NCBI GenBank assembly: GCA_945952105.1
Contig: CAMFGZ010000006.1
Coordinates: 124,001 to 188,000, forward strand
Source of the DNA: an uncultured Rhodospirillaceae bacterium
GTDB taxonomy: Bacteria; Pseudomonadota; Alphaproteobacteria; Reyranellales; Reyranellaceae
Direction: 5' to 3'
Length of the DNA stretch: 64,000 nucleotides
How positions within the stretch are numbered: the first letter of the stretch is position 1; each line of letters begins with the position of its first letter. The translations under genes and the position numbers were made by a program. Of this stretch, positions 41,704 to 64,000 are shown one piece after another. The notes below the pieces were generated by a model that was not told the DNA's origin, searched no databases, and saw only the letters and a program-made list of their open reading frames with translations.

Positions 41704-43989
41704 CTAGTCGGCAGCCATGTCCATCGTCGCCAGGATCTTCGGCGGCGACATGGGCAGGCTGTAGAACCGGCGGCCGAGCGCGGCGTGGACCGCGTTCGAC
41801 ACGGCGGCCAGAGGCGGCACCAGCGGCACCTCGCCTACGCCGCGCACGCCCTGCGGATGCTTCGGGTTCGGGATTTCCAGGATCACCGAATCGAGCATCG
41901 GCAGGTCGGAGCTGACCGGCATGCGGTAGTCGAGGAAGCTCGGATTATCGAGCTTGCCGTCCTTGTTGAAGATGTACTCCTCGCTCAGCGCCCAGCCGAT
42001 GCCCTGGGCGGCCCCGCCCTGGATCTGGCCCTCGACGTAGCTGGGATGGATGGCGCGGCCGACATCCTGGAAGGCCGTGTAGCGCAGCACGCGGACGATG
42101 CCGAGATCGGGATCGACCTCGACGTCGCAGATATGCGTGGCGAAGCCGCCCTCGGCGCCCGTCGTGTTGAGCTGCTGGCCGGCCCCGATGGGCCCGCCCG
42201 TGGCGCTGGCCTGGGCCGCGATCTGGCCGAGGCTAAGCGGCTCGAACTTGCCGGCATTGTCGCCGGCCGGACGTGCCTCGCCATTCTCCCAGACGACCGC
42301 GTCGGGATCGATCTTCCAGATCTTGGCGGCGCGCTCGCGGAGCTGGGTGATGACCCGCTCCGTCGAATGCGTGACGACCATCGCCGAGGCATAGGTCACG
42401 CGGCTGCCGCCGGTCAGGTTGCTGAAGCCGATGACGCTGGTGTCGCCGATCAGCACCGAGACCTTCTTGTAGTCGATGCCCAGAATCTCGGCGGTGATGT
42501 TGGCCGTGGAGGCGCGCGAGCCGCCGATGTCGGGATGGCCGGTGATCACGACGACCGTTCCGTCCTCGTTGATGTTCACCTGCGCGCTCGACTCGCCGCC
42601 GGCATTGAACCAGAAGCCGGAGGCCACGCCGCGACCATACAACATGCCTTTCTTCGACTTGGGCAGCGGCGTCGTGTAGTGCGCGTGCTTCTTGGCCTCC
42701 TCGATCGTCTCGACGAAGCCGATACGCGGATAGACCGGGCCGTGCGCGGCCTTGGTGCCCTGCTTGGCCGCGTTCTTCAGACGGAAATCCAGCGGATCCA
42801 TCTTCAGCACCTCGGCCATCTCGTCCATGACGCACTCGACGCCGTAGGCGCCGATCGGCGCGCCTGGCGCGCGATAGGCCGCGACCTTCGAGCGGTTGGA
42901 CACCACGTCGAAGCCCAGCGAGTGGACATTCGGTATGTCGTAGGGCGCGAAGGCACAGCCCGCCGCGCCGCGGATGGGCGAACCGGGCAGCGCGCCGGCC
43001 TGCAGGCAGAAAGTGCCCTGCGCGGCCACCAGCTTGCCGTCCCTGGTCGCACCCAGCTTGACCTTGCTGTAGGAGCCCGACGTTGGCCCGGAGGCGTGGA
43101 ACACCTCGCCGCGTGTCATCGTCATCTTCACCGGGCGGCCGGACTTCTTGGCCAGGATCAGCGCCAGCGGCTCGAGGTAGATGATGGTCTTGCCGCCAAA
43201 GCCGCCACCGATCTCGGCGGGGATGGCACGGATGTCGTTCTGCGGCAGGCCCGTCAGGTAGGCGCACATGGCGCGGACCATGAACTGGCCCTGGCTCGAA
43301 CTCCAGATCGTGGCCTTGCCGTCCGAGACGCTGACCAGGCAGGCATGCGGCTCGATATACCCCTGGTGCACCGGCTGGGTGCGGAAGCTGCGCTCGATGA
43401 CGACATCGGCCTTGGCGAAGCCCTCGCCGATATCACCGAGCTTGTGCTCCAGCGTGCCGGCGATGTTCGAGGGCTTGTCCTTGAACTCGATGAAGTCGTG
43501 CAGGATCGGCGCGTCGGGCTTCATCGCCTCCTCGACGTCGATCACGAACGGCAGCACCTCGTACTCGACCTCGATCAGCTTGCAGGCTTCAGCCGCGATC
43601 TTCTCGGTGGTCGCCGCGACCGCTGCCACCGGATGACCGGCGAACAGCGCCTTCTCGCGCGCCATGACGTTGCGGCACATCCAGCGCATGTCCTGGATGC
43701 CGAGCATGACGGACTTATCGAGCGGAAAGTTCACGATGTCCTTGGCCGTCATCACGGCCTTCACGCCGGGATGGGCCTCGGCCTTGCTGGTATCGATCGA
43801 CTTGATACGCGCATGCGGATGCGGGCTGCGCAGCACCTTGCCCCAGATCATGCCGGGCATGGTCGTGTCGGCGGCGTAGGCGGCACGGCCCGTCACCTTG
43901 TCGGCGCCGTCGGGGCGGATCGTGCGCTTGCCGATCCACTTGTTGTCGTTGGCGGTATCGGGGGTCTTGCTGCTCCCAGTCGTGCTCAT
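41704..43989 (-). CDS. Molybdenum hydroxylase large (molybdopterin-binding) subunit
   Basis: Catalytic subunit of a xanthine dehydrogenase/CO dehydrogenase-family enzyme, 761 residues. Cofactor-binding blocks include EPHACLVS, GGGFGGKTIIYLEP, AAYRAPGAPIGAYGVECVMDE and the catalytic Glu in GVRGVGEVPLVPP. The CO dehydrogenase-specific AYxCSFR loop is absent, AYRAPGAP replacing it, so this is not a form I CO dehydrogenase. It starts by overlapping the iron-sulfur subunit gene by 4 bp (ATGA). Hydroxylation of an aromatic or N-heterocyclic compound is likely, but the substrate is unknown. Confidence 0.93.
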   Translation of the reverse strand: MSTTGSSKTPDTANDNKWIGKRTIRPDGADKVTGRAAYAADTTMPGMIWGKVLRSPHPHARIKSIDTSKAEAHPGVKAVMTAKDIVNFPLDKSVMLGIQDMRWMCRNVMAREKALFAGHPVAAVAATTEKIAAEACKLIEVEYEVLPFVIDVEEAMKPDAPILHDFIEFKDKPSNIAGTLEHKLGDIGEGFAKADVVIERSFRTQPVHQGYIEPHACLVSVSDGKATIWSSSQGQFMVRAMCAYLTGLPQNDIRAIPAEIGGGFGGKTIIYLEPLALILAKKSGRPVKMTMTRGEVFHASGPTSGSYSKVKLGATRDGKLVAAQGTFCLQAGALPGSPIRGAAGCAFAPYDIPNVHSLGFDVVSNRSKVAAYRAPGAPIGAYGVECVMDEMAEVLKMDPLDFRLKNAAKQGTKAAHGPVYPRIGFVETIEEAKKHAHYTTPLPKSKKGMLYGRGVASGFWFNAGGESSAQVNINEDGTVVVITGHPDIGGSRASTANITAEILGIDYKKVSVLIGDTSVIGFSNLTGGSRVTYASAMVVTHSTERVITQLRERAAKIWKIDPDAVVWENGEARPAGDNAGKFEPLSLGQIAAQASATGGPIGAGQQLNTTGAEGGFATHICDVEVDPDLGIVRVLRYTAFQDVGRAIHPSYVEGQIQGGAAQGIGWALSEEYIFNKDGKLDNPSFLDYRMPVSSDLPMLDSVILEIPNPKHPQGVRGVGEVPLVPPLAAVSNAVHAALGRRFYSLPMSPPKILATMDMAAD

Positions 43990-44462
43990 CGGGCGGCCCT
44001 CATGTCGGCGGCGGTGTCCATCACGGCGCGGATGATCTTGTCGTAGCCCGTGCAGCGGCACAGGTTGCCGGCCAGCCAGAAGCGGACTTCGTGCTCGGTC
44101 GGATCGGGATTGCGCTCGAGCAATGCCTTTGCGGCCATCAGGACGCCCGGCGTGCAGATGCCGCACTGGAGGGCCGCCGATTCCAGGAACTTCTGCTGCA
44201 GCGGATGCAGTTCCTCGCCGGCCATGCCCTCGATGGTACCGATCTTCTGGCCCTCGGCCTCGGCCGCGAGCATCAGGCAGGAGCAGACGATGCGGCCGTT
44301 CAGGGTGATGGTGCAGGCGCCGCAGTCGCCGGTACCGCAGCCTTCCTTGGCGCCGGTCAGGCCGAGCGGTCCGCGCAGGACATCGAGCATGCTCTGCTCG
44401 GCGTCGCAGAGGAATTCCTGCGGCTCGCCGTTGATCGTGGTGGAGACGTGGAGCTTCGCCAT
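43986..44462 (-). CDS. Molybdenum hydroxylase small (2Fe-2S) subunit
   Basis: 158 residues with two 2Fe-2S clusters: plant-ferredoxin type CGTGDCGACT plus SCLMLA, and the helical domain QCGICTPGVLM with NLCRCTGY. Electron relay between the molybdopterin and FAD subunits. ATG at 44462, 4 bp after the FAD subunit stop. The frame continues upstream a few codons into the previous gene but without family similarity. Confidence 0.96.
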   Translation of the reverse strand: MAKLHVSTTINGEPQEFLCDAEQSMLDVLRGPLGLTGAKEGCGTGDCGACTITLNGRIVCSCLMLAAEAEGQKIGTIEGMAGEELHPLQQKFLESAALQCGICTPGVLMAAKALLERNPDPTEHEVRFWLAGNLCRCTGYDKIIRAVMDTAADMRAAR

Positions 44463-44466
44463 GGTC

Positions 44467-45333
44467 CTACTTTCCTCCCGCGCGTTCGGCGGCAATGAGT
44501 GCGGTGCGCTTCAGCAGGACGCCGGCCACCTTGGTGCGATAAGCGATGGTGCCGCGCTTGTCGTCGATGGGACGGCAGGCGGCGCTGCAGGCCGCGGCGG
44601 CCTTGGCCAGCGCGGTGTCGTCGAGTTTGGATCCGACGAGGGCCCTGGCGGCCTCCTCGACCAGCAGAACCGTCGGGGCGACGGCGCCGAGACCGACGCG
44701 CGCGGCGGTGCAGGTCCCCTTGTCCATCGTCAGGCTGACGGCGCACCCGACGACGGCGATGTCCATCTCGGTGCGCGGGATCATGCGCAGGTAGGCGTCG
44801 CTCGATCCCTTGGCCCGCGGCGGCAGGTTGAAGCAAACGACGATCTCGCCGGCCTCGAGATTGAGGCGGCCCGGACCCTTCGGCACCTTCTCGACGGCAA
44901 GCTCGCGGCGGCCATTCGGCCCCTGGATGGTGACGGTCGCGCCCGCCGCGACCATGGCCGGCACGCTGTCGCCGGCCGGCGAGCCGTTGCACAGGTTACC
45001 ACCCGGCGTGGCGCGGCCCTGCACCTGGGTGGAGCCGATCAGGTTGGCGGCCTCGACGACGCCCGGCCAGACCTTGCTGAGTTTCGGATGCTCGCGCAGC
45101 ACCATGCCGGAGACCGCGGCGCCGACCCGGAAGCCCCCGTCCTTGGTTTCGTCGATCGAGGTCATCTCGCCGATCTTCTTGATGTCGATGATCGTGCCCG
45201 GCGAGACGATGCCGGTGCGCATCTGGACCAGGAGGTCGGTGCCGCCGGCCAGGATCCGGCCCGAGCCCGCCGCCGCTGAGAACGCGCGAATCGCTTCGTC
45301 CAGCGTCTTCGGCGCTACGTATTGGACATCCAT
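44467..45333 (-). CDS. Molybdenum hydroxylase medium (FAD-binding) subunit
   Basis: 288 residues. FAD motifs ILAGGTDLLVQMRTG and TPGGNLCNGSPAGDSVPA are clear, followed by the C-terminal CO dehydrogenase flavoprotein-like domain. First gene of the medium-small-large operon. The 150-bp gap upstream to der shows no promoter I trust. Together with the next two genes it makes a complete heterotrimer. Confidence 0.95.
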   Translation of the reverse strand: MDVQYVAPKTLDEAIRAFSAAAGSGRILAGGTDLLVQMRTGIVSPGTIIDIKKIGEMTSIDETKDGGFRVGAAVSGMVLREHPKLSKVWPGVVEAANLIGSTQVQGRATPGGNLCNGSPAGDSVPAMVAAGATVTIQGPNGRRELAVEKVPKGPGRLNLEAGEIVVCFNLPPRAKGSSDAYLRMIPRTEMDIAVVGCAVSLTMDKGTCTAARVGLGAVAPTVLLVEEAARALVGSKLDDTALAKAAAACSAACRPIDDKRGTIAYRTKVAGVLLKRTALIAAERAGGK

Positions 45334-56571: not shown

Positions 56572-57501
56572 TTACTTCGCGTACTTGCCGGTGAGCTGCG
56601 GCGTGTGCGGGCCCTCGCCGCCCTTCTCCTTGTGCTGCAGGCGCGTGGTGCGGGCCCAGGTGCGCTTCAGCTCGTCCTTCACGCTGAACTTCAGCGTGCC
56701 GATCTTCTCGACCGTCAGCTCGATCTTGTCCCCGTCCATGAACGAATGAAGGCCGCGATGATTGGTGCCGGTGGCGACGATGTCGCCGGGCTCCAGCGTA
56801 TGGATCGAGCTCACCCATTCGATGATGCGCGGGATGTGGTGCGCCATGTCGGATGTGTTGAACTTCTGCATGACCTCGCCGTTGTTGGTCAGCGTGATGT
56901 TCAGTTTCTGCGGATCGGCGATCTCGTCGGCTGTGACGATGCACGGACCGATCGGCGCGAAAGTGTCGCGCGACTTCATTTGGAAGAAGACATTGCCCGG
57001 CGGCGGCAGGCCGCGTGCCGAACCGTCGATGAAGCAGGTGTAACCGAAGATATGCTTGAAGGCATCGGCCTGCGTGGCACGCGTCGCGCGCTTGCCGATG
57101 ACCAGCGCCATCTCCGCCTCGCCCTCGAAGATCGTGGCCGGCGCGTCGGGCAGCACCATCGTGTCACCGTCGCCGATCACAGCGGTCGCGGCCTTGTGGA
57201 AGGCATTGATGGCGGGCTTCTCCGGAAGGGTGCCGTCTTCCATGTAATTCACCGCCATGCAGACGATGTTGCCGGGCTTCGGCACCGGCGGGCGTAGCTT
57301 CACGCCCGACACCGGCACGCCCTTGCCGGACACGGCGGCCTTTTCGACCTTGCCTTTGTATTCGTCCCATCGGGCGATCAGCCCGATGATGAGGTCCCGG
57401 GCTTCCAGATGCGGGATGTCCTTGACGGCGTCCGTCACGTCGACGACCTGGTCACCCTTGATGACGCCCAGCCGATAATCGTTGAAATAACAAAGCTTCA
57501 C
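56572..57501 (-). CDS. Fumarylacetoacetate hydrolase family protein (first copy)
   Basis: 309 residues: a short N-terminal domain (VKLCYFNDYRLGVIKGDQVVDVT) and the FAH catalytic fold with IVCMAVNYMEDG, the metal ligands in FEGEAEMALVIGK and IGPCIVTADEI, and LEPGDIVATGTNHRG. Such enzymes isomerise, decarboxylate or hydrolyse ring-cleavage products. The GTG at 57501 overlaps the stop of the carboxymuconolactone-decarboxylase-like gene (GTGA) and follows GGGAGAG. The substrate is not evident. A terminator follows. Confidence 0.9.
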   Translation of the reverse strand: MKLCYFNDYRLGVIKGDQVVDVTDAVKDIPHLEARDLIIGLIARWDEYKGKVEKAAVSGKGVPVSGVKLRPPVPKPGNIVCMAVNYMEDGTLPEKPAINAFHKAATAVIGDGDTMVLPDAPATIFEGEAEMALVIGKRATRATQADAFKHIFGYTCFIDGSARGLPPPGNVFFQMKSRDTFAPIGPCIVTADEIADPQKLNITLTNNGEVMQKFNTSDMAHHIPRIIEWVSSIHTLEPGDIVATGTNHRGLHSFMDGDKIELTVEKIGTLKFSVKDELKRTWARTTRLQHKEKGGEGPHTPQLTGKYAK

Positions 57502-57830
57502 TTCTTCTCTCCCTCTTCGAGCACTTTCCTGGCGACGTTGGCGGCTGACATGGCGGTCGGCCAGCCGGAGTAGAATGCGAGATGCGTGATGAGCTCGATC
57601 AGCTCGTCCTTGGTAACTCCATTGTTGATGGCACGGGTGAAGTGTCCTGTCTGCTGTTCGGTGCGGTTCATCGCGACCAGCGCTGCACACGTTATGAGAC
57701 TGCGGTCCCGCTTGGAGAGGCCAGGCCTTTGCCAGACGTCGCCGAAAAGCACATCGTCGGTGAGTTCGATCAGCTTGGGGGCGAAGGATCGTAGCCCGTC
57801 GCGCGGATTGGCGGCCGGCGGCTTGGACAT
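57498..57830 (-). CDS. Carboxymuconolactone decarboxylase family protein
   Basis: 110 residues, all helical, with SKRDRSLITCAALVAM, QTGHFTRAINNGVTKDELIELITHLAFYSGWPTA, the CMD/AhpD-like signature. Only one cysteine of the CxxC pair is in the core (TCAAL), so peroxidase activity of AhpD type is unlikely and a decarboxylase or unknown role more likely. AGGAGAG precedes the ATG. Coupled to the fumarylacetoacetate-hydrolase-like gene. Confidence 0.9.
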   Translation of the reverse strand: MSKPPAANPRDGLRSFAPKLIELTDDVLFGDVWQRPGLSKRDRSLITCAALVAMNRTEQQTGHFTRAINNGVTKDELIELITHLAFYSGWPTAMSAANVARKVLEEGEKK

Positions 57831-57869
57831 GGTTTCTCTCCTTTTCAGGGTCTGAGGGTCGCGGTAGCG

Positions 57870-57890
57870 TTCCTCCAAAGAGCGGAGGAA
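57870..57890 (+). promoter_or_regulatory. Hairpin that masks the ribosome binding site of the next gene
   Basis: TTCCTCC (57870-57876) is the perfect complement of the Shine-Dalgarno GGAGGAA (57884-57890), with a 7-base loop, three bases before the ATG at 57894. It could make translation temperature- or factor-dependent. Confidence 0.55.
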
Positions 57891-57893
57891 ACA

Positions 57894-58841
57894 ATGGCCG
57901 TAATCAAGGCTGCGGAATTTGCCTGGCCCCGCATGGAGGCGCCCGACCTCGACCAGATGGAAGAGTTCCTCACCCATTTCGGCCTGGTGCGTTCCGAGCG
58001 CACGGCCGACGCGCTCTACATGCGCGGCACCGACGATCACCATCACCTGCACGTCACGCACAAGGGCGGCACGAAGTTCATCGGCTTCGCCTATCACGCC
58101 GCCGACGAAGACGACCTGAAGCGGCTGGCGAAGCTGCCGGGTGCCTCGGGAATCGAGACGATCGACGAGCCGGGCGGCGGCAAGCGCGTGCGCCTCAGCG
58201 AGCCGAACGGCTACCAGATCGAAGTCGTCGCCGGGCAGAACCGGATCGAGCCGATCAAGGTCGCGCGCGACGAACAGAACACCGCCCGCGAACCGGGTCG
58301 CCGCGTCGGACGGGTTATGCGTCTCGGCAAGTCGCCCACATCGATCCAGCGCATCGGCCACGGCGTGCTGTCGTCGCCCAAGGTGACGGAGACCGTGGCC
58401 TGGTTTCGCGAAACGCTGGGCATGATCCGGTCCGACGACGTCTATGTCGGGAGCGCGGACAACATCATCGGCTCGTTCAACCGGCTCGATCGCGGCGATG
58501 CCTATGTCGATCACCACGTCTTCTTCTGCAATCACAATACAAGGGCCGGCCTGAACCACGTTTCCTACGAGGTTCAGGATATCGACTGCGTCTTCCAGGA
58601 CCACGAGTACATCAAGCGGCTGGGCAAGTACGACCATATGTGGGGCATCGGCCGCCACCTGCTCGGCAGCCAGGTCTACGACTACTGGTGCGACCCCTGG
58701 GGCCGGGTCCACGAACGCTGGGCAGATACCGACCGGCTGAACGCAGCCAATGGCGGCAACCTGCTCAGCGCCGAGGAAGGCTTCCAGTCGCAATGGGGCG
58801 ACCGGCCGCCGGACCGTTTCCTGGGTCACGCCAGCCCCTGA
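57894..58841 (+). CDS. Glyoxalase-fold (VOC) extradiol ring-cleavage dioxygenase
   Basis: 315 residues with two VOC repeats, as in type I extradiol dioxygenases. The catalytic iron ligands appear as His in RIGHGVLSS (about 154), His in GLNHVSYEVQD (about 224) and Glu in WGRVHERW (about 280). It should open a catechol ring next to a hydroxyl, using O2 and Fe(II). It is the only plus-strand gene in the region, placed between two minus-strand units, and its stop is 5 bp from the second fumarylacetoacetate-hydrolase-like gene. Substrate unknown. Confidence 0.87.
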   Translation: MAVIKAAEFAWPRMEAPDLDQMEEFLTHFGLVRSERTADALYMRGTDDHHHLHVTHKGGTKFIGFAYHAADEDDLKRLAKLPGASGIETIDEPGGGKRVRLSEPNGYQIEVVAGQNRIEPIKVARDEQNTAREPGRRVGRVMRLGKSPTSIQRIGHGVLSSPKVTETVAWFRETLGMIRSDDVYVGSADNIIGSFNRLDRGDAYVDHHVFFCNHNTRAGLNHVSYEVQDIDCVFQDHEYIKRLGKYDHMWGIGRHLLGSQVYDYWCDPWGRVHERWADTDRLNAANGGNLLSAEEGFQSQWGDRPPDRFLGHASP

Positions 58842-58846
58842 GGCCG

Positions 58847-59716
58847 TTACTTCGTTTTGAACTTGTCCGGCAGGCGCTCTTCGTTACCCAGCGCCACCTT
58901 GCGGACGCCCTCGCTGTCGGGGCTGGGCGGGAAGCCTTCCGAAGCGCGCGGCGCCGGCGTCTCCACGACCGTGTTCGACAGGCGACCGATGCCCGTCACC
59001 TCGATGTCGATCGTGTCACCGGCTTCGAGCGGACGTGAGTTGGCCGGCGTACCCGTCAGCAGGATGTCGCCCGGCAGGAAGGTGATGTGCCGCGCAAGGT
59101 CGGCGATCAGGTACCCGCAGTCGAAGATCTGCTCGCTGACCGCGCCCTCCTGAACCATCTTGCCGTTCTTGTAGCTGCGGAGCGTCGACTGGCGCACATC
59201 GACGCCCGAGACGAGCCCGGGGCCGATCGGGCAGAAGCCGTCCATGCCCTTCACCCGCAGCATCGACCCCGCATCGGTATCGCGGAAATCGTGGCAGCCG
59301 AAATCGTTGGCCGGCGCGAAGCCCGCGATGCAGTCCCAAGCCTCCTCGCGGCTCACGTTCTTCGTGACCTTCGAGAAGACGACGGCCATCTCGCCCTCGT
59401 AGTTCACGTACTTGTAGCCCTTGGGCTTAACCAGCTCGCCCTTGTGGGCGTTGAGCGCGGTCAACGGCTTCTGGAAATAGGTCGGCGTCTTTGGCGGTGT
59501 GTGCGTGTTGTTGAATTCGTAGTAGCGCGAAATGTAGTTCACGTGGACGCACAGGATCTTGGTCGGGTTGCACGGCGGCAGGTGGACCACGTCCTTCTCT
59601 TCCGCGGTGCGCCCGTCGGCAAAGACGATCTTGCCGTCCTTGAATTCCACCCAATAGGCGCTGCCGTCCTTCATGACGTGACGGATTTCCTTGCGCGGTC
59701 CCTCGAGTACGCTCAT
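58847..59716 (-). CDS. Fumarylacetoacetate hydrolase family protein (second copy)
   Basis: 289 residues. Metal-binding FAH core with ILCVHVNYISRYYEF, YEGEMAVVFSK, NDFGCHDFRD, MDGFCPIGPGLVSG and LPGDILLTGTPANSRPL. Similar to HpaG/HpcE types that isomerise or decarboxylate meta-cleavage products. It differs clearly from the first copy, so the two are not recent duplicates. Placed 14 bp after the LigB-type dioxygenase in the same operon, as expected if it acts on that product. Confidence 0.88.
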   Translation of the reverse strand: MSVLEGPRKEIRHVMKDGSAYWVEFKDGKIVFADGRTAEEKDVVHLPPCNPTKILCVHVNYISRYYEFNNTHTPPKTPTYFQKPLTALNAHKGELVKPKGYKYVNYEGEMAVVFSKVTKNVSREEAWDCIAGFAPANDFGCHDFRDTDAGSMLRVKGMDGFCPIGPGLVSGVDVRQSTLRSYKNGKMVQEGAVSEQIFDCGYLIADLARHITFLPGDILLTGTPANSRPLEAGDTIDIEVTGIGRLSNTVVETPAPRASEGFPPSPDSEGVRKVALGNEERLPDKFKTK

Positions 59717-59730
59717 CTCAACAACTCCCC

Positions 59731-60588
59731 CTACTGAAGATCGAACCAGACATGAACATTGCCGGTGCCGGCCGCGTTCTCGTATTCCGAGAGCTGCGTG
59801 CCGCGGGCGCGGCAATTTCTGCCGCCCAGCGCCCCCATCATCTGCGCGTAGTGCGCGCCGTGGCCCTCGTACCTGGCCGCTTCCAGCTCCGGAAACCGGT
59901 CGATCACCGTGTCGTGCCGTCCCTCCTTCCAGAGTTCCAGCACCTCCATGTCGAGCGCGCGGTTCCTGGGCTCCGAAACATTGTCCGGATGCCAGACCCG
60001 CGGATTGGGCGGCACATGATCAAGGTCGTAGAATTTGTGGCTCATCGCGCCCGAGGCCAGCAGCACCACCCTGGCATCCGAGCGCCGGATCGCCTCGCCC
60101 ACCACCTCGCCCATCTGGAGGAAGTGCTTCAGCTTCGCGGTCTGGCAGGTGCCGACGCTCAGCACCTTCTCTCCGCGGCCGAGATAGTGGATGACGTTGA
60201 TCGTCGGATAGTGCAGCGGCAGCGTCTCCTCGACGACGTTGCGCGCCGCGACCTTCTTCTCCTGCGCCACCTTCTCGACCTCGGCCGCCAGTGCCGGCGC
60301 GCCGGCATGGTCGTAGGGAAAGCGCGTCATCGAGAACGGCAGCTCGTCGGACGTGTAGCTCCCTTTGTAGTGGGCCGCGCCCGCCACGAGATGCAGCGAC
60401 GTGGTGAGCCAGTGCGTGTCGAACAGCACGAACGTGTCGGGCTTCACCGCGTCTATCTTTGCCCGCACGCGATCGAAGCCCTCGATCAGATCCGAGTCGC
60501 GACCATTACCCCGCTGGACCCGGATTTCCTTCGGCTGCACCAGGCCGGGATGGTGCGAAACGACGGCCGCGCCAACGATCTGGCCCAT
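59731..60588 (-). CDS. LigB-type (class III) extradiol dioxygenase catalytic subunit
   Basis: 285 residues. Active-site histidines in AAVVSHHPGLV and FDTHWLTTS, plus SGAMSHKFYDLDHVPPNPRVWH, characteristic of LigB/HpcB-type enzymes that use Fe(II) to open protocatechuate-like or homoprotocatechuate-like rings. No small (LigA) subunit is adjacent. The ATG at 60588 follows the hydroxylase large subunit by 4 bp. Confidence 0.9.
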   Translation of the reverse strand: MGQIVGAAVVSHHPGLVQPKEIRVQRGNGRDSDLIEGFDRVRAKIDAVKPDTFVLFDTHWLTTSLHLVAGAAHYKGSYTSDELPFSMTRFPYDHAGAPALAAEVEKVAQEKKVAARNVVEETLPLHYPTINVIHYLGRGEKVLSVGTCQTAKLKHFLQMGEVVGEAIRRSDARVVLLASGAMSHKFYDLDHVPPNPRVWHPDNVSEPRNRALDMEVLELWKEGRHDTVIDRFPELEAARYEGHGAHYAQMMGALGGRNCRARGTQLSEYENAAGTGNVHVWFDLQ

Positions 60589-60592
60589 GGAT

Positions 60593-62929
60593 CTATGCTC
60601 CCTTAGCCGCCTGGATGGCGCGCCAGACATTCTCCGCCGTCGCCGGCATGACCATGTCACGAACACCCAGCGGCGCCAGCGCATCGATCACCGCGTTCAT
60701 CACCACCGGCATGGCACCCACCGTGCCGGCCTCGCCCGCCCCCTTTGCGCCGAGCGGATTGTACTTGGTCGGCACGGGGTTGGACTTCACCTCCACGCTG
60801 CACATCGTGTCCGCGCGCGGCATCGTGTAGTCGAGGAAGCTCGCGGTCAGGAGCTGACCGCTCTCGCGGTCCCAAACCACGCGCTCGCCCAGGATCTGTC
60901 CGACTCCCTGCGCCACGCCGCCATGGATCTGCCCCTTGAGGCCGATCGGGTTCATCACCGTGCCGACATCGTCGACCACCGCATAACGGTCGAGCCGGAC
61001 CTCGCCCGTGTCGGGATCGACCTCGACCTCGCAGATGTGGCAGCCGTTGGGATAGGTATCCTTTTCGCCGAGATAGGTTGCGTTCTCGTAGAGACCGCCC
61101 TCGAAGCCGCTCTTCGGCCACTTGGTCGGATTGAACGCCGCCATCGCGACCGCCTTCAGCGACACCGTCTTGTCGGTGCCCTTCACCTTGAAGATGCCGT
61201 CGGCGAACTCGATGTCCTGCTCGCCCGCCTCCAGGAGATGGCCGGCCAGCCGCTTGCCCTTCTCGATCACCTTTCCGGCCGCAAGGAACAGCGCCGAACC
61301 GCCCAGCACCGTCGAGCGCGAACCGTTGGTGCCCATGCCGAAGGCCACACGGTCGGTATCGCCGTCGATGAACTGCACCTCGTTGGGATCGATGCCCAGA
61401 CGCTCGTTCAGGATCTGCTTGAACATGGTCTCGTGACCTTGTCCCTGGGCCTTGGTGCCCATCAGCAGCGCCGCCGTGCCGGCCGGATTGAAACGGATCT
61501 CGGCATATTCGGGCTGCGCCGTGCCGGCCGCCTGTTCGATGGCGTTGATGATGCCGAGGCCGCGCAGCTTGCCGCGCTTCTTCGACTCGTCGGCCCGCGC
61601 CGCGTAGCCCGCCACGTCCGCGAGCTTCAGCGCCATGTCCATGTTCTTCTCGAACTCGCCGCAGTCGTAGAACGGACCGACGGGGCTCTGATACGGCAGG
61701 GCCGCCTCGGACAGCATGTTCTTGCGCCGCAGCTCGACCCGGTCGACGCCCAGCTCGCGCGCCGCGTCGTCGATCAGCCGCTCGATCAGGTAGATGGCTT
61801 CCGGCCGTCCTGCCCCGCGATAGGGCGCCGTGGGGTTGGTGTTGGAGAGAACGCCCACGACGTTGATGTAGGCCTTGGGGATCAAGTAGACGCCCAGCAC
61901 CGTGCCGATCATGCCGAAGGGCGACAGCAGATTGCGATCCGAGCCGACATAGGCGCCGATGTTCGCCAGCATGTTGAGACGCAACGCGACGAACTTGTTG
62001 TCCGCATCGAGCGCCAGTTCCAGCTCGCCGACATTGTCGCGGCCATGCTCGTCGGCCATGACCGCCTCGGAGCGCTCGCAGCACCATTTCACCGGCCGCA
62101 GCAGCTTGCGGGCCGCCCACAGGGTCAGGCGGTGCTCGACATACTGCCAGCCCTTGGTCCCGAAACCGCCACCGACGTCGCCCGAGATGACCCGCATCTT
62201 GCTCTCGGGCACCTTGAACACGTTCTGCGCCAGCATGTTGCGCACGCGATGGGGATACTGCACGTCCGCATAGAGCGTCATGCGGTCTTCGCCCTGGTCG
62301 TAGACACCGAGCGTTCCGCGCGGCTCCATGTACTGGGCATGCACCCGCGTGATGACGTAGCGGCGCTTGATGACCTTGGCGGCGCCCCTTATCGTCTCCT
62401 CCGTCGCCGCCTTGTTCCCGCGCTCGATGAAGTTCGAGATATTGTCCGGACAGTCGTCCCAGACTGCTGGCGCGCCGGGCTTCACCGTGTCCTCGGTGAG
62501 CGTCACCGACGGAATGGGCTCGTAGTCGATCTCGACCAGTTCGGCGGCGTCCTTGGCCTCCGCCAGCGTCTCGGCGATCACCATCGCCACAGGGTCGCCG
62601 ACATAGCGGACCCGATCGACGATCAGCGGTGGCCGCTGCGGCGCGAACATCGGCTTACCGTCGGGCCGCTTCCTCGGCATGTTGGCCTTGGGCATGCCGA
62701 GCCCGTCTGCCGCCACGTCGTGGCCGGTATAGACGGCCAGGACGCCGGGTGCCGCCGACGCCGCCTTCGTGTCGATCGAGCGGATGTTGGCATGCGCATG
62801 CGGTGAGCGGACGAACACCGCATAGGTCTGCCCGTGCAGATTGACGTCGTTGACGAAGCGGCCCTGCCCGCGCAGCAGCCGTGGATCCTCGAAACGCAAC
62901 ACCGGCTGGCCGATTCCGTACTTGCTCAT
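60593..62929 (-). CDS. Xanthine dehydrogenase-family large subunit without partner genes
   Basis: 778 residues, molybdopterin-binding subunit of the CoxL/XdhB family. Motifs EDPRLLRGQGRFVNDV, GGGFGTKGWQYVEHR, PYRGAGRPEA (in place of the CO dehydrogenase loop) and the catalytic Glu in GAKGAGEAGTVGAMP. The 2Fe-2S and FAD subunit genes normally beside it are missing; the nearest are in the heterotrimer operon at 44-45 kb. It is placed in an operon with a LigB-type dioxygenase, which suggests hydroxylation of an aromatic compound before ring cleavage. Confidence 0.93.
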   Translation of the reverse strand: MSKYGIGQPVLRFEDPRLLRGQGRFVNDVNLHGQTYAVFVRSPHAHANIRSIDTKAASAAPGVLAVYTGHDVAADGLGMPKANMPRKRPDGKPMFAPQRPPLIVDRVRYVGDPVAMVIAETLAEAKDAAELVEIDYEPIPSVTLTEDTVKPGAPAVWDDCPDNISNFIERGNKAATEETIRGAAKVIKRRYVITRVHAQYMEPRGTLGVYDQGEDRMTLYADVQYPHRVRNMLAQNVFKVPESKMRVISGDVGGGFGTKGWQYVEHRLTLWAARKLLRPVKWCCERSEAVMADEHGRDNVGELELALDADNKFVALRLNMLANIGAYVGSDRNLLSPFGMIGTVLGVYLIPKAYINVVGVLSNTNPTAPYRGAGRPEAIYLIERLIDDAARELGVDRVELRRKNMLSEAALPYQSPVGPFYDCGEFEKNMDMALKLADVAGYAARADESKKRGKLRGLGIINAIEQAAGTAQPEYAEIRFNPAGTAALLMGTKAQGQGHETMFKQILNERLGIDPNEVQFIDGDTDRVAFGMGTNGSRSTVLGGSALFLAAGKVIEKGKRLAGHLLEAGEQDIEFADGIFKVKGTDKTVSLKAVAMAAFNPTKWPKSGFEGGLYENATYLGEKDTYPNGCHICEVEVDPDTGEVRLDRYAVVDDVGTVMNPIGLKGQIHGGVAQGVGQILGERVVWDRESGQLLTASFLDYTMPRADTMCSVEVKSNPVPTKYNPLGAKGAGEAGTVGAMPVVMNAVIDALAPLGVRDMVMPATAENVWRAIQAAKGA

Positions 62930-62963
62930 GACGCCCTCTCTCCTGCGAACGCTCGATCTGACT

Positions 62964-63929
62964 CTAGGACTGGCTGACGACGTGCGCGAGCGGGCGCCAG
63001 CGGGCCATGTCGGCCTCCACCCGTGTCCGGAACTCGGCGGGGCTCGAGACGCGCGTGTCGTTGCCCAGCTCTTCCAGCCTGGCCTTCACGTCTGGCCGCG
63101 CCATGGCCTGCCTAAGCGCCTCGTACAGCCGATCCCGGATGGCAGGCGGCAGGCCGGCCGGCGCAGTGAAACCCAGCCACGACACGACGTCGTAGTCCGG
63201 CACGACCGTTTCCGCGACCGTGGGCACGTCGGGAAAGCCCGGATGCCGCTCCTTCGAGGTCACGGCGAGCGCGCGCAGCTTGTCGGTCTTCATCAGTGGC
63301 TGGGCGTTGGAGAACGTCACGACATGCATGTCGAGCCGGCCGCCCACTAGGTCGTTGAAAGGCTGGCCGATGCCGCCCTTGTAGGGAATATGGGTCATCT
63401 TAGCGCCTGTCTTCTCGAGGATCAGCTCCATCGCCATATGAAGCGTAGATCCAACGCCCGACGTGCCGTAGGTCAGTTTGCCGGGTTCGCGCTTGCCCTC
63501 CTCCAGGTAGGCCTGAACAGTCTTGAAGCGGGACTCTGGCGCGACGGTGAGCACGAAGGGAAAGCGCGTGACGATCGAGATGAAGTCGAAATCCTTCAGG
63601 AGATCGTAACTGAGGCTGCGATCGGTCGCCGAGACGACCGCCTGCCCACCCGTCATGAGATAGAGCGTATAGCCGTCGGGCTTCATGCGCGCGATCTGGC
63701 TGGCTGCCAGCCGCTCGGCGGCACCAGGTCGCGGCTCGATGACGATCTGCTGGCCCAATATCTCGGTCAGCGGGACGCTGAGGTGACGGGCGATCGTGTC
63801 AGGATTCGAGCCGGCGTCGTAGCCGTGCATCAGACGAATGGTCTGCGACGGGTAGGCCTGCGCACGCGCAATCGCGGGTGCGCCGACCGCCGCCGCTGCG
63901 GCAGACATCAGCAAAGTCCGGCGTCTCAT
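62964..63929 (-). CDS. TctC-type (Bug family) periplasmic solute-binding protein
   Basis: 321 residues with an Arg-rich Tat-like signal (MRRRTLLMSAAAAAVGAPAIARAQ), then PSQTIRLMHGYDAGSNPDTIAR, VIEPRPGAAERLAA, GKLTYGTSGVGSTLHMAMEL and PYKGGIGQPFNDLVGG, all typical of tripartite tricarboxylate transporter receptors. The TctA and TctB membrane genes are not in the window. Ligands in this family include dicarboxylates and aromatic acids; here an aromatic acid is inferred from the neighbours. GGAGGAGG precedes the ATG. Confidence 0.93.
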   Translation of the reverse strand: MRRRTLLMSAAAAAVGAPAIARAQAYPSQTIRLMHGYDAGSNPDTIARHLSVPLTEILGQQIVIEPRPGAAERLAASQIARMKPDGYTLYLMTGGQAVVSATDRSLSYDLLKDFDFISIVTRFPFVLTVAPESRFKTVQAYLEEGKREPGKLTYGTSGVGSTLHMAMELILEKTGAKMTHIPYKGGIGQPFNDLVGGRLDMHVVTFSNAQPLMKTDKLRALAVTSKERHPGFPDVPTVAETVVPDYDVVSWLGFTAPAGLPPAIRDRLYEALRQAMARPDVKARLEELGNDTRVSSPAEFRTRVEADMARWRPLAHVVSQS

Positions 63930-64000
63930 GTTTCCTCCTCCTGTTCTTCATTGTTCGGGCCGTCGTTATCCCAACGGTCCCATGAACGTCTGATCGGCAT
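63926..64000 (-). CDS. Possible C-terminal end of an upstream gene, cut by the window edge
   Basis: On the minus strand the frame is open from the edge and ends with an acidic tail (NNEEQEEET) at a TGA overlapping the ATG of the solute-binding gene (ATGA). It may be the 3' end of another gene of the operon. Too short to identify. Confidence 0.35.
   Translation of the reverse strand: MPIRRSWDRWDNDGPNNEEQEEET

Follow-up and report, generated by a model that had tools for sequence, protein, structure and literature searches.

A conserved aromatic catabolic island combining extradiol dioxygenases of types I and III with a partnerless molybdenum hydroxylase subunit in a Reyranella-family bacterium

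The locus described here belongs to a soil and freshwater bacterium of the Reyranella family and lies at the right end of the window, that is the whole stretch of 64,000 nucleotides that was analysed (C6 124001-188000 in genome G000 numbering). Its features, including those located past the right end of the window (given in extended window numbering), are the following:

56572..57501, minus strand: FAH1, an FAH-fold enzyme of 309 aa (PF01557, 5.5e-50) with a GTG start
57498..57830, minus strand: CMD, a carboxymuconolactone-decarboxylase-like protein of 110 aa (PF02627, 5.5e-22)
57831..57893: divergent intergenic region of 63 bp between CMD-FAH1 and VOC315, in which the TTTCGAAA palindrome seen upstream of LivK was not found
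57894..58841, plus strand: VOC315, a two-domain type I extradiol dioxygenase of 315 aa with conserved active-site residues
58847..59716, minus strand: FAH2, an HpaG-like FAH-fold enzyme of 289 aa (nearest solved structure 1gtt)
59731..60588, minus strand: LigB, an HpaD_Fe-like type III extradiol dioxygenase of 285 aa (PF02900, 2.9e-25)
60593..62929, minus strand: MoCoL, a molybdenum hydroxylase large subunit of 778 aa (PF01315, PF02738, PF20256)
62964..63929, minus strand: TctC, a TctC/Bug-family solute receptor of 321 aa (PF03401, 2e-62)
63966..64000, minus strand: 3' end of VOC409, the only portion of this gene inside the window
63966-65195 (C6 187966-189195), minus strand: VOC409, a two-domain VOC protein of 409 aa
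65206-65988 (C6 189206-189988), minus strand: GntR, a GntR/FCD regulator
65995-70516 (C6 189995-194516), minus strand: LivF-G-M-H-K block
70598-70618 (C6 194598-194618): candidate operator palindrome upstream of LivK

The seven genes from FAH1 to TctC, whose co-occurrence had been pointed out in an earlier note on this DNA, are all present at these positions with Pfam matches above the gathering scores, while the family assignments of GntR and the Liv proteins come from reading the sequences and not from the profile scan. Extension of the contig to the right, which the same note had suggested, shows that the same-strand run goes on with VOC409, the GntR/FCD regulator and LivKHMGF. The minus-strand run in fact starts at LivK (70516), past the right end of the window, and has the order LivK-LivH-LivM-LivG-LivF-GntR-VOC409-TctC-MoCoL-LigB-FAH2, with gaps of -11 to +36 bases, a spacing consistent with a single transcript. 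VOC315 is convergent with FAH2, from which 5 bases separate it, and divergent from CMD-FAH1 (63 bases between), CMD and FAH1 overlapping by 4 bases.

Upstream of LivK there is a 21-bp palindrome, ATTTTCGAAA-G/C-TTTCGAAAAT, whose 17-bp core occurs a single time in the 5.46 Mb genome when up to one mismatch is allowed. This core is found unaltered at the corresponding position in E. aerosaccus L042, L050 and G280, and in degenerate form in G066. Judged from the sequence, the TTTTCGAAAnTTTCGAAAA site is likely the operator of the run's GntR protein. The palindrome was also sought in the CMD/VOC315 intergenic region, as an operator shared by both blocks, and was not found there. Regulation of the two strands by unrelated signals, named earlier as an outcome that would speak against a joint function, is thus a mixed matter: in the genome analysed, the putative operator is seen upstream of LivK alone.

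The search of the genome collection gave 28 loci, 20 of which have a LigB 84-95% identical to that of the island; by these nearest relatives the genome falls in the Reyranella/Enhydrobacter group. Most of the gene set is common to about 20 Reyranellaceae loci. All the genes tested (11/11) show a median pN/pS of 0.07-0.17 and no internal stops, values which indicate that the gene set is kept by purifying selection in Reyranellaceae. Because of this recurrence, of these pN/pS values and of the lack of internal stops, the grouping is not due to chance. The composition of the set varies to some extent: CMD is absent from G280 and several others (e.g., L035 and L051), TctC from L042, L050 and L064, and FAH2 from L041, while L041 and L047 have a different Liv set upstream of MoCoL. 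In the complete genome G066 (L064) LigB is gone from the cluster, with MoCoL, FAH2 and VOC315 retained, and a 50% relative is located elsewhere, beside other Liv and GntR genes. As to scattering of the genes in relatives, which had been named as a possible refutation, most of the set is shared, but there are relatives in which LigB, TctC, CMD, VOC409 or the transporter is lacking or has been exchanged. The earlier suggestion that the opposite-strand units divide the function between them is not supported: in L043, L044, L045 (R. massiliensis) and L055, VOC315 is on the LigB strand and VOC315-CMD-FAH1 lies directly downstream of, and collinear with, FAH2, so that the opposite-strand arrangement has no general meaning. 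In the R. massiliensis lineage a RidA/YjgF-family gene is found right after FAH1 (L044:15013-15354 and L045:14926-15357), a neighbour that may point to a nitrogen-containing intermediate.

The claim of a type I and a type III dioxygenase side by side is borne out by residue conservation, both active sites being complete. In LigB, an alignment of 14 sequences, including Erwinia HpaD, shows H12, H59, H184 and E241 to be invariant, which corresponds to the two histidine and one glutamate metal ligands plus the catalytic histidine (H184) of type III enzymes. The nearest solved relative of LigB is HPCD; its identity to Erwinia HpaD is 29%, and its score against the HpaD_Fe equivalog TIGR02298 is 158.6 bits, under the cut-off of 315.95. 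As regards VOC315, the metal residues H156, H222 and E274 are invariant in 11 relatives with identity down to 43%, as are the catalytic H207/H208, H255 and Y264, as expected of a type I enzyme, and their spacing is that of BphC. Its profile scores for HpaD (67.6 bits) and C23O (62.5 bits) are both under the cut-offs. Judged by these residues, LigB and VOC315 are two proven-looking extradiol dioxygenases.

VOC409 is a different case. Its predicted fold is that of a two-domain extradiol dioxygenase, BphC/AphC-like (Foldseek), on a low-confidence model (mean pLDDT 57) whose input was limited to near-identical sequences. In the N-domain H28, H85 and E161 are conserved, with Q111 where the second histidine usually sits; the C-domain metal triad of type I enzymes is absent, and M243 and L362/Y364 occupy the expected positions (assigned by eye). 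VOC409 is thus a possible third extradiol dioxygenase and, because it is a candidate without a C-domain metal site, only two dioxygenases are claimed. The 2-isopropylphenol ipp and carbofuran systems were considered as leads for VOC409 and discarded, the resemblance being merely loose. A VOC409 relative (45%) is encoded on a plasmid of Leisingera sp. M527 (L080), beside a complete molybdenum hydroxylase, CoxG, FAH, an FCD regulator and a TRAP transporter, hence VOC409 and molybdenum hydroxylases co-occur outside Reyranellaceae too.

Both FAH-fold enzymes have the ExE...D metal triad, invariant in each (E128, E130 and D159 in FAH1; E107, E109 and D138 in FAH2). The best solved relative of FAH1 is maleylpyruvate hydrolase (6jvv/6jvw, 1.6e-44) and that of FAH2 is E. 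coli HpaG/HpcE (1gtt, 1.9e-52). CMD scores 73.5 bits against TIGR02425 (PcaC), under the cut-off of 155.7, and was rejected as a 4-carboxymuconolactone decarboxylase; its relatives are too widespread to be informative.

MoCoL carries the catalytic-glutamate motif KGAGEAG and the loop PYRGAGR, of the form II type. Its identity as CoxL of aerobic CO dehydrogenase was rejected, since it scores 553.4 bits against TIGR02416, under the cut-off of 991.15, and has no form I loop AYxCSFR; among NCBIfam models it comes closest to those for glyceraldehyde dehydrogenase alpha and CO dehydrogenase, without reaching the cut-off of either. By profile search, the island has no Fer2_2 or FAD_binding_5 gene for the small and medium subunits, which map elsewhere in the genome, so the three subunits of a molybdenum hydroxylase do not stand together here as they do in G552. 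A complete set (large, small and medium) is located in the window at 41704-45333, about 15 kb from MoCoL, and its large subunit is 30% identical to MoCoL. In the whole genome the profile search found 15 MoCoBD_1, 7 Fer2_2 and 6 FAD_binding_5 genes; seven of the 15 large subunits adjoin a small subunit and the remaining eight, MoCoL included, are orphans. The seven other orphans (C3:80902, C1:286157, C10:142919, C17:40229, C17:56956, C11:81591 and C15:73585) are 40-45% identical to MoCoL and have varied gene contexts. C52 is the sole complete set of the MoCoL clade found in the genome, with a large subunit 45.5% identical to MoCoL, against 25-30% for the other complete sets compared. The tree places the island MoCoL together with G552, G186 and L053 (support 100/100) and does not resolve the orphan large subunits as one clade (open fork). 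By hypothesis, MoCoL would share the small and medium subunits of C52 as its electron-transfer partner. A broader proposal, rather unlikely as it stands, is that all eight orphans dock onto shared Fe-S/FAD subunits, for which C52 CoxS/CoxM would be the best candidate, and that the MoCoL swap replaces the aldehyde dehydrogenase of meta-cleavage. The surplus of orphan large subunits raises a wider question on the assembly of such enzymes.

The comparison of neighbourhoods shows that LigB-FAH2 is a recurring adjacent pair. The order HpaE-LigB-FAH2 is found in Variovorax (L054), where HpaH is also present, and in Sphingobium TomTYG64 (L061), together with HpcG and an aldolase; the truncated Variovorax locus L052 has HpaE-LigB, the alphaproteobacterium G037 (L090) an HpaE-type ALDH-LigB-FAH2, and Streptomyces (L063) ALDH-LigB-FAH. 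The order with HpaE matches the reaction order of cleavage, semialdehyde oxidation, and decarboxylation/isomerisation. In Reyranella the slot before LigB, held by HpaE in Variovorax and Sphingobium, is filled by MoCoL, and the LigB-MoCoL adjacency is found again in the unrelated L053 (LigB 52% and MoCoL 65% identical). Moreover, neither equivalog is in the genome, the best score being 501.6 bits for HpaE (cut-off 638.35) and 80.9 bits for HpaH (cut-off 351.5), and the HpaE-like genes at C16, C10 and C11 have no aromatic context around them. The position of MoCoL, the lack of HpaE and HpaH equivalogs and the recurrence in L053 are the basis for proposing that MoCoL replaces HpaE.

Among known systems, the homoprotocatechuate hpa/hpc cluster of Erwinia persicina pEP2 also has an HpaG-type FAH enzyme close to its LigB-type dioxygenase, and an oxidoreductase gene immediately before the dioxygenase. 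Unlike hpa/hpc, the island has no HpaE, HpaF, HpaH, HpaI or HpaBC, places a molybdenum subunit in the HpaE slot, adds a type I dioxygenase, CMD and a second FAH, and has a GntR regulator and a Liv importer in place of HpaR/HpaA. The nearest LigB (53-56%) and FAH2 (56-57%) outside the family are those of Variovorax L054 and Sphingobium TomTYG64, adjacent as here, but these clusters carry an HpaE-type dehydrogenase and an HpaH/HpcG hydratase and lack MoCoL, VOC315, VOC409 and CMD. The 7.3 Mb alphaproteobacterial genome G552 shares GntR, LivKHMGF, MoCoL (70%), FAH2 (58%) and FAH1 (55%), although its Liv proteins are just 26-44% identical to those of the island; its cluster differs in having complete CoxS, CoxM and CoxG, together with SDR and nitroreductase-family genes, and no LigB, VOC or other ring-cleavage dioxygenase within the ~20 kb examined. 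The gene order there (L088, G552:C1:2722000-2741900) is GntR-Liv-MoCoL-FAH2-SDR-CoxS-CoxM-NTF2-like-nitroreductase-family-FAH1-CoxG-LysR, with MoCoL and FAH2 translationally coupled. The flavonoid fde and isoflavone ifc A-ring clusters also open the ring of a plant aromatic with a VOC-type dioxygenase; they begin with an FAD monooxygenase, and the descriptions consulted name no LigB or molybdenum subunit (PMC11069340; PMC8552027). Identity with naringenin fde or isoflavone ifc was rejected on this enzyme, no FAD monooxygenase being present among the genes from 54 kb in the window to 9 kb past its end. The riboflavin/lumichrome and 4-hydroxypyridine kpi clusters were set aside for a differing gene set, as far as the descriptions consulted go; mimosine PydA is annotated there as LigB family. 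No matching cluster or described set emerged from the literature searched, subscription papers being outside its coverage. The locus is therefore a real, conserved aromatic catabolic island, probably regulated, whose parts are known and whose combination, including the partnerless molybdenum subunit, matches no described pathway found.

The reading that we prefer, tentatively and with rather less than even confidence, is that of a single dedicated island for an imported aromatic acid, probably plant-derived, in which LigB performs the cleavage, MoCoL does the job of HpaE, FAH2 follows, and VOC315, CMD and FAH1 form a second branch. Gene order, complete active sites, nearest solved relatives, selection, the operator and the LigB-clade tree support it. 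The main counter-evidence is the G552 cluster with its MoCoL and no dioxygenase nearby; the G066 cluster, which lost LigB yet kept MoCoL, FAH2 and VOC315, and the lack of an aromatic monooxygenase in the island also speak against it. The Liv-type importer would take up the acid under the control of GntR acting through the candidate operator. LigB would cleave a homoprotocatechuate-type catechol to a hydroxymuconic semialdehyde, which MoCoL, together with iron-sulfur and FAD subunits whose genes lie elsewhere, would oxidise to the acid, the step of HpaE in other organisms, and the HpaG-like FAH2 would then decarboxylate or isomerise the product. VOC315, CMD and FAH1, the last as an acylpyruvate-type C-C hydrolase, would serve a related or successive ring. 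The island holds no aromatic monooxygenase; this enzyme and the lower pathway would be encoded elsewhere or be present in unrecognised form. A standalone HpaE-like ALDH (C16 or C10, below the equivalog cut-off) could supply the HpaE step instead. Should the preferred reading hold, an environmental genus whose aromatic metabolism has been little described would gain a new meta-cleavage route, in which a molybdenum enzyme substitutes for the dehydrogenase of the ring-cleavage semialdehyde; the single candidate operator in the genome would also make this a tractable system for finding the substrate.

Breakdown of N-heterocycles usually starts with a molybdenum hydroxylase. MoCoL might come first in the pathway and hydroxylate the ring of an N-heterocycle or aromatic acid, leaving cleavage of the dihydroxylated ring to LigB or VOC315 and the final steps to the FAH enzymes. 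Such an entry to N-heterocycle breakdown is described in PMC4548258; the G552 cluster has a complete CoxSLM with FAH1, FAH2, GntR and Liv and no dioxygenase, a full SLM enzyme accompanies the Leisingera VOC409 relative, as do FAH and an FCD regulator, and in L044 and L045 the set has RidA-like neighbours. On the other hand, within its family MoCoL falls on the CoxL-like/glyceraldehyde-dehydrogenase side, its gene occupies the HpaE position, and the neighbours of the LigB clade in other genomes are homoprotocatechuate-type enzymes. Since the G552 MoCoL, with CoxS, CoxM and CoxG, lacks a dioxygenase nearby, MoCoL may act on a substrate other than a ring-cleavage semialdehyde, and because of this cluster the ring-hydroxylase role keeps some probability, although it is the less likely reading.

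It is unlikely that two independent pathways simply adjoin, with LivK to FAH2 devoted to one substrate and VOC315/CMD-FAH1 to another: both blocks remain adjacent family-wide, four loci have VOC315-CMD-FAH1 collinear with FAH2, in G186 MoCoL lies immediately next to VOC315, and in G552 a single cluster holds both FAH1 and FAH2. A division of this kind would agree with the palindrome missing from the CMD/VOC315 intergenic region, with the inserted stretches of 0.6-2.4 kb that separate FAH2 from VOC315 in L042, L044, L046 and L050, and with pairs of VOC315-like and FAH1-like genes that stand alone in other Alphaproteobacteria, in several cases beside an FAD monooxygenase. The alternative of a plain homoprotocatechuate (4-hydroxyphenylacetate) pathway whose genes have diverged has in its favour that, among solved proteins, LigB is nearest HPCD and FAH2 nearest HpaG. 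It is very improbable given the LigB score (158.6 bits against a cut-off of 316) and its 29% identity to Erwinia HpaD, the lack of HpaE or HpaH above the cut-off in the genome, and the lack of HpaBC, HpaF and HpaI in the island. The canonical hpa pathway was rejected on the HpaE and HpaH scores, below the cut-offs genome-wide, in agreement with the mismatch to the homoprotocatechuate pathway first remarked from the sequence.

A more distant LigB homologue is found with a cytochrome P450, a glutamine-synthetase-like enzyme and an aldehyde dehydrogenase in L062 (Novosphingobium), L063 and L090, and in L062 and L063 its cluster also carries an acetoacetate-decarboxylase-family gene. This cluster is possibly an undescribed aromatic-amine pathway common to Actinomycetota and Alphaproteobacteria.
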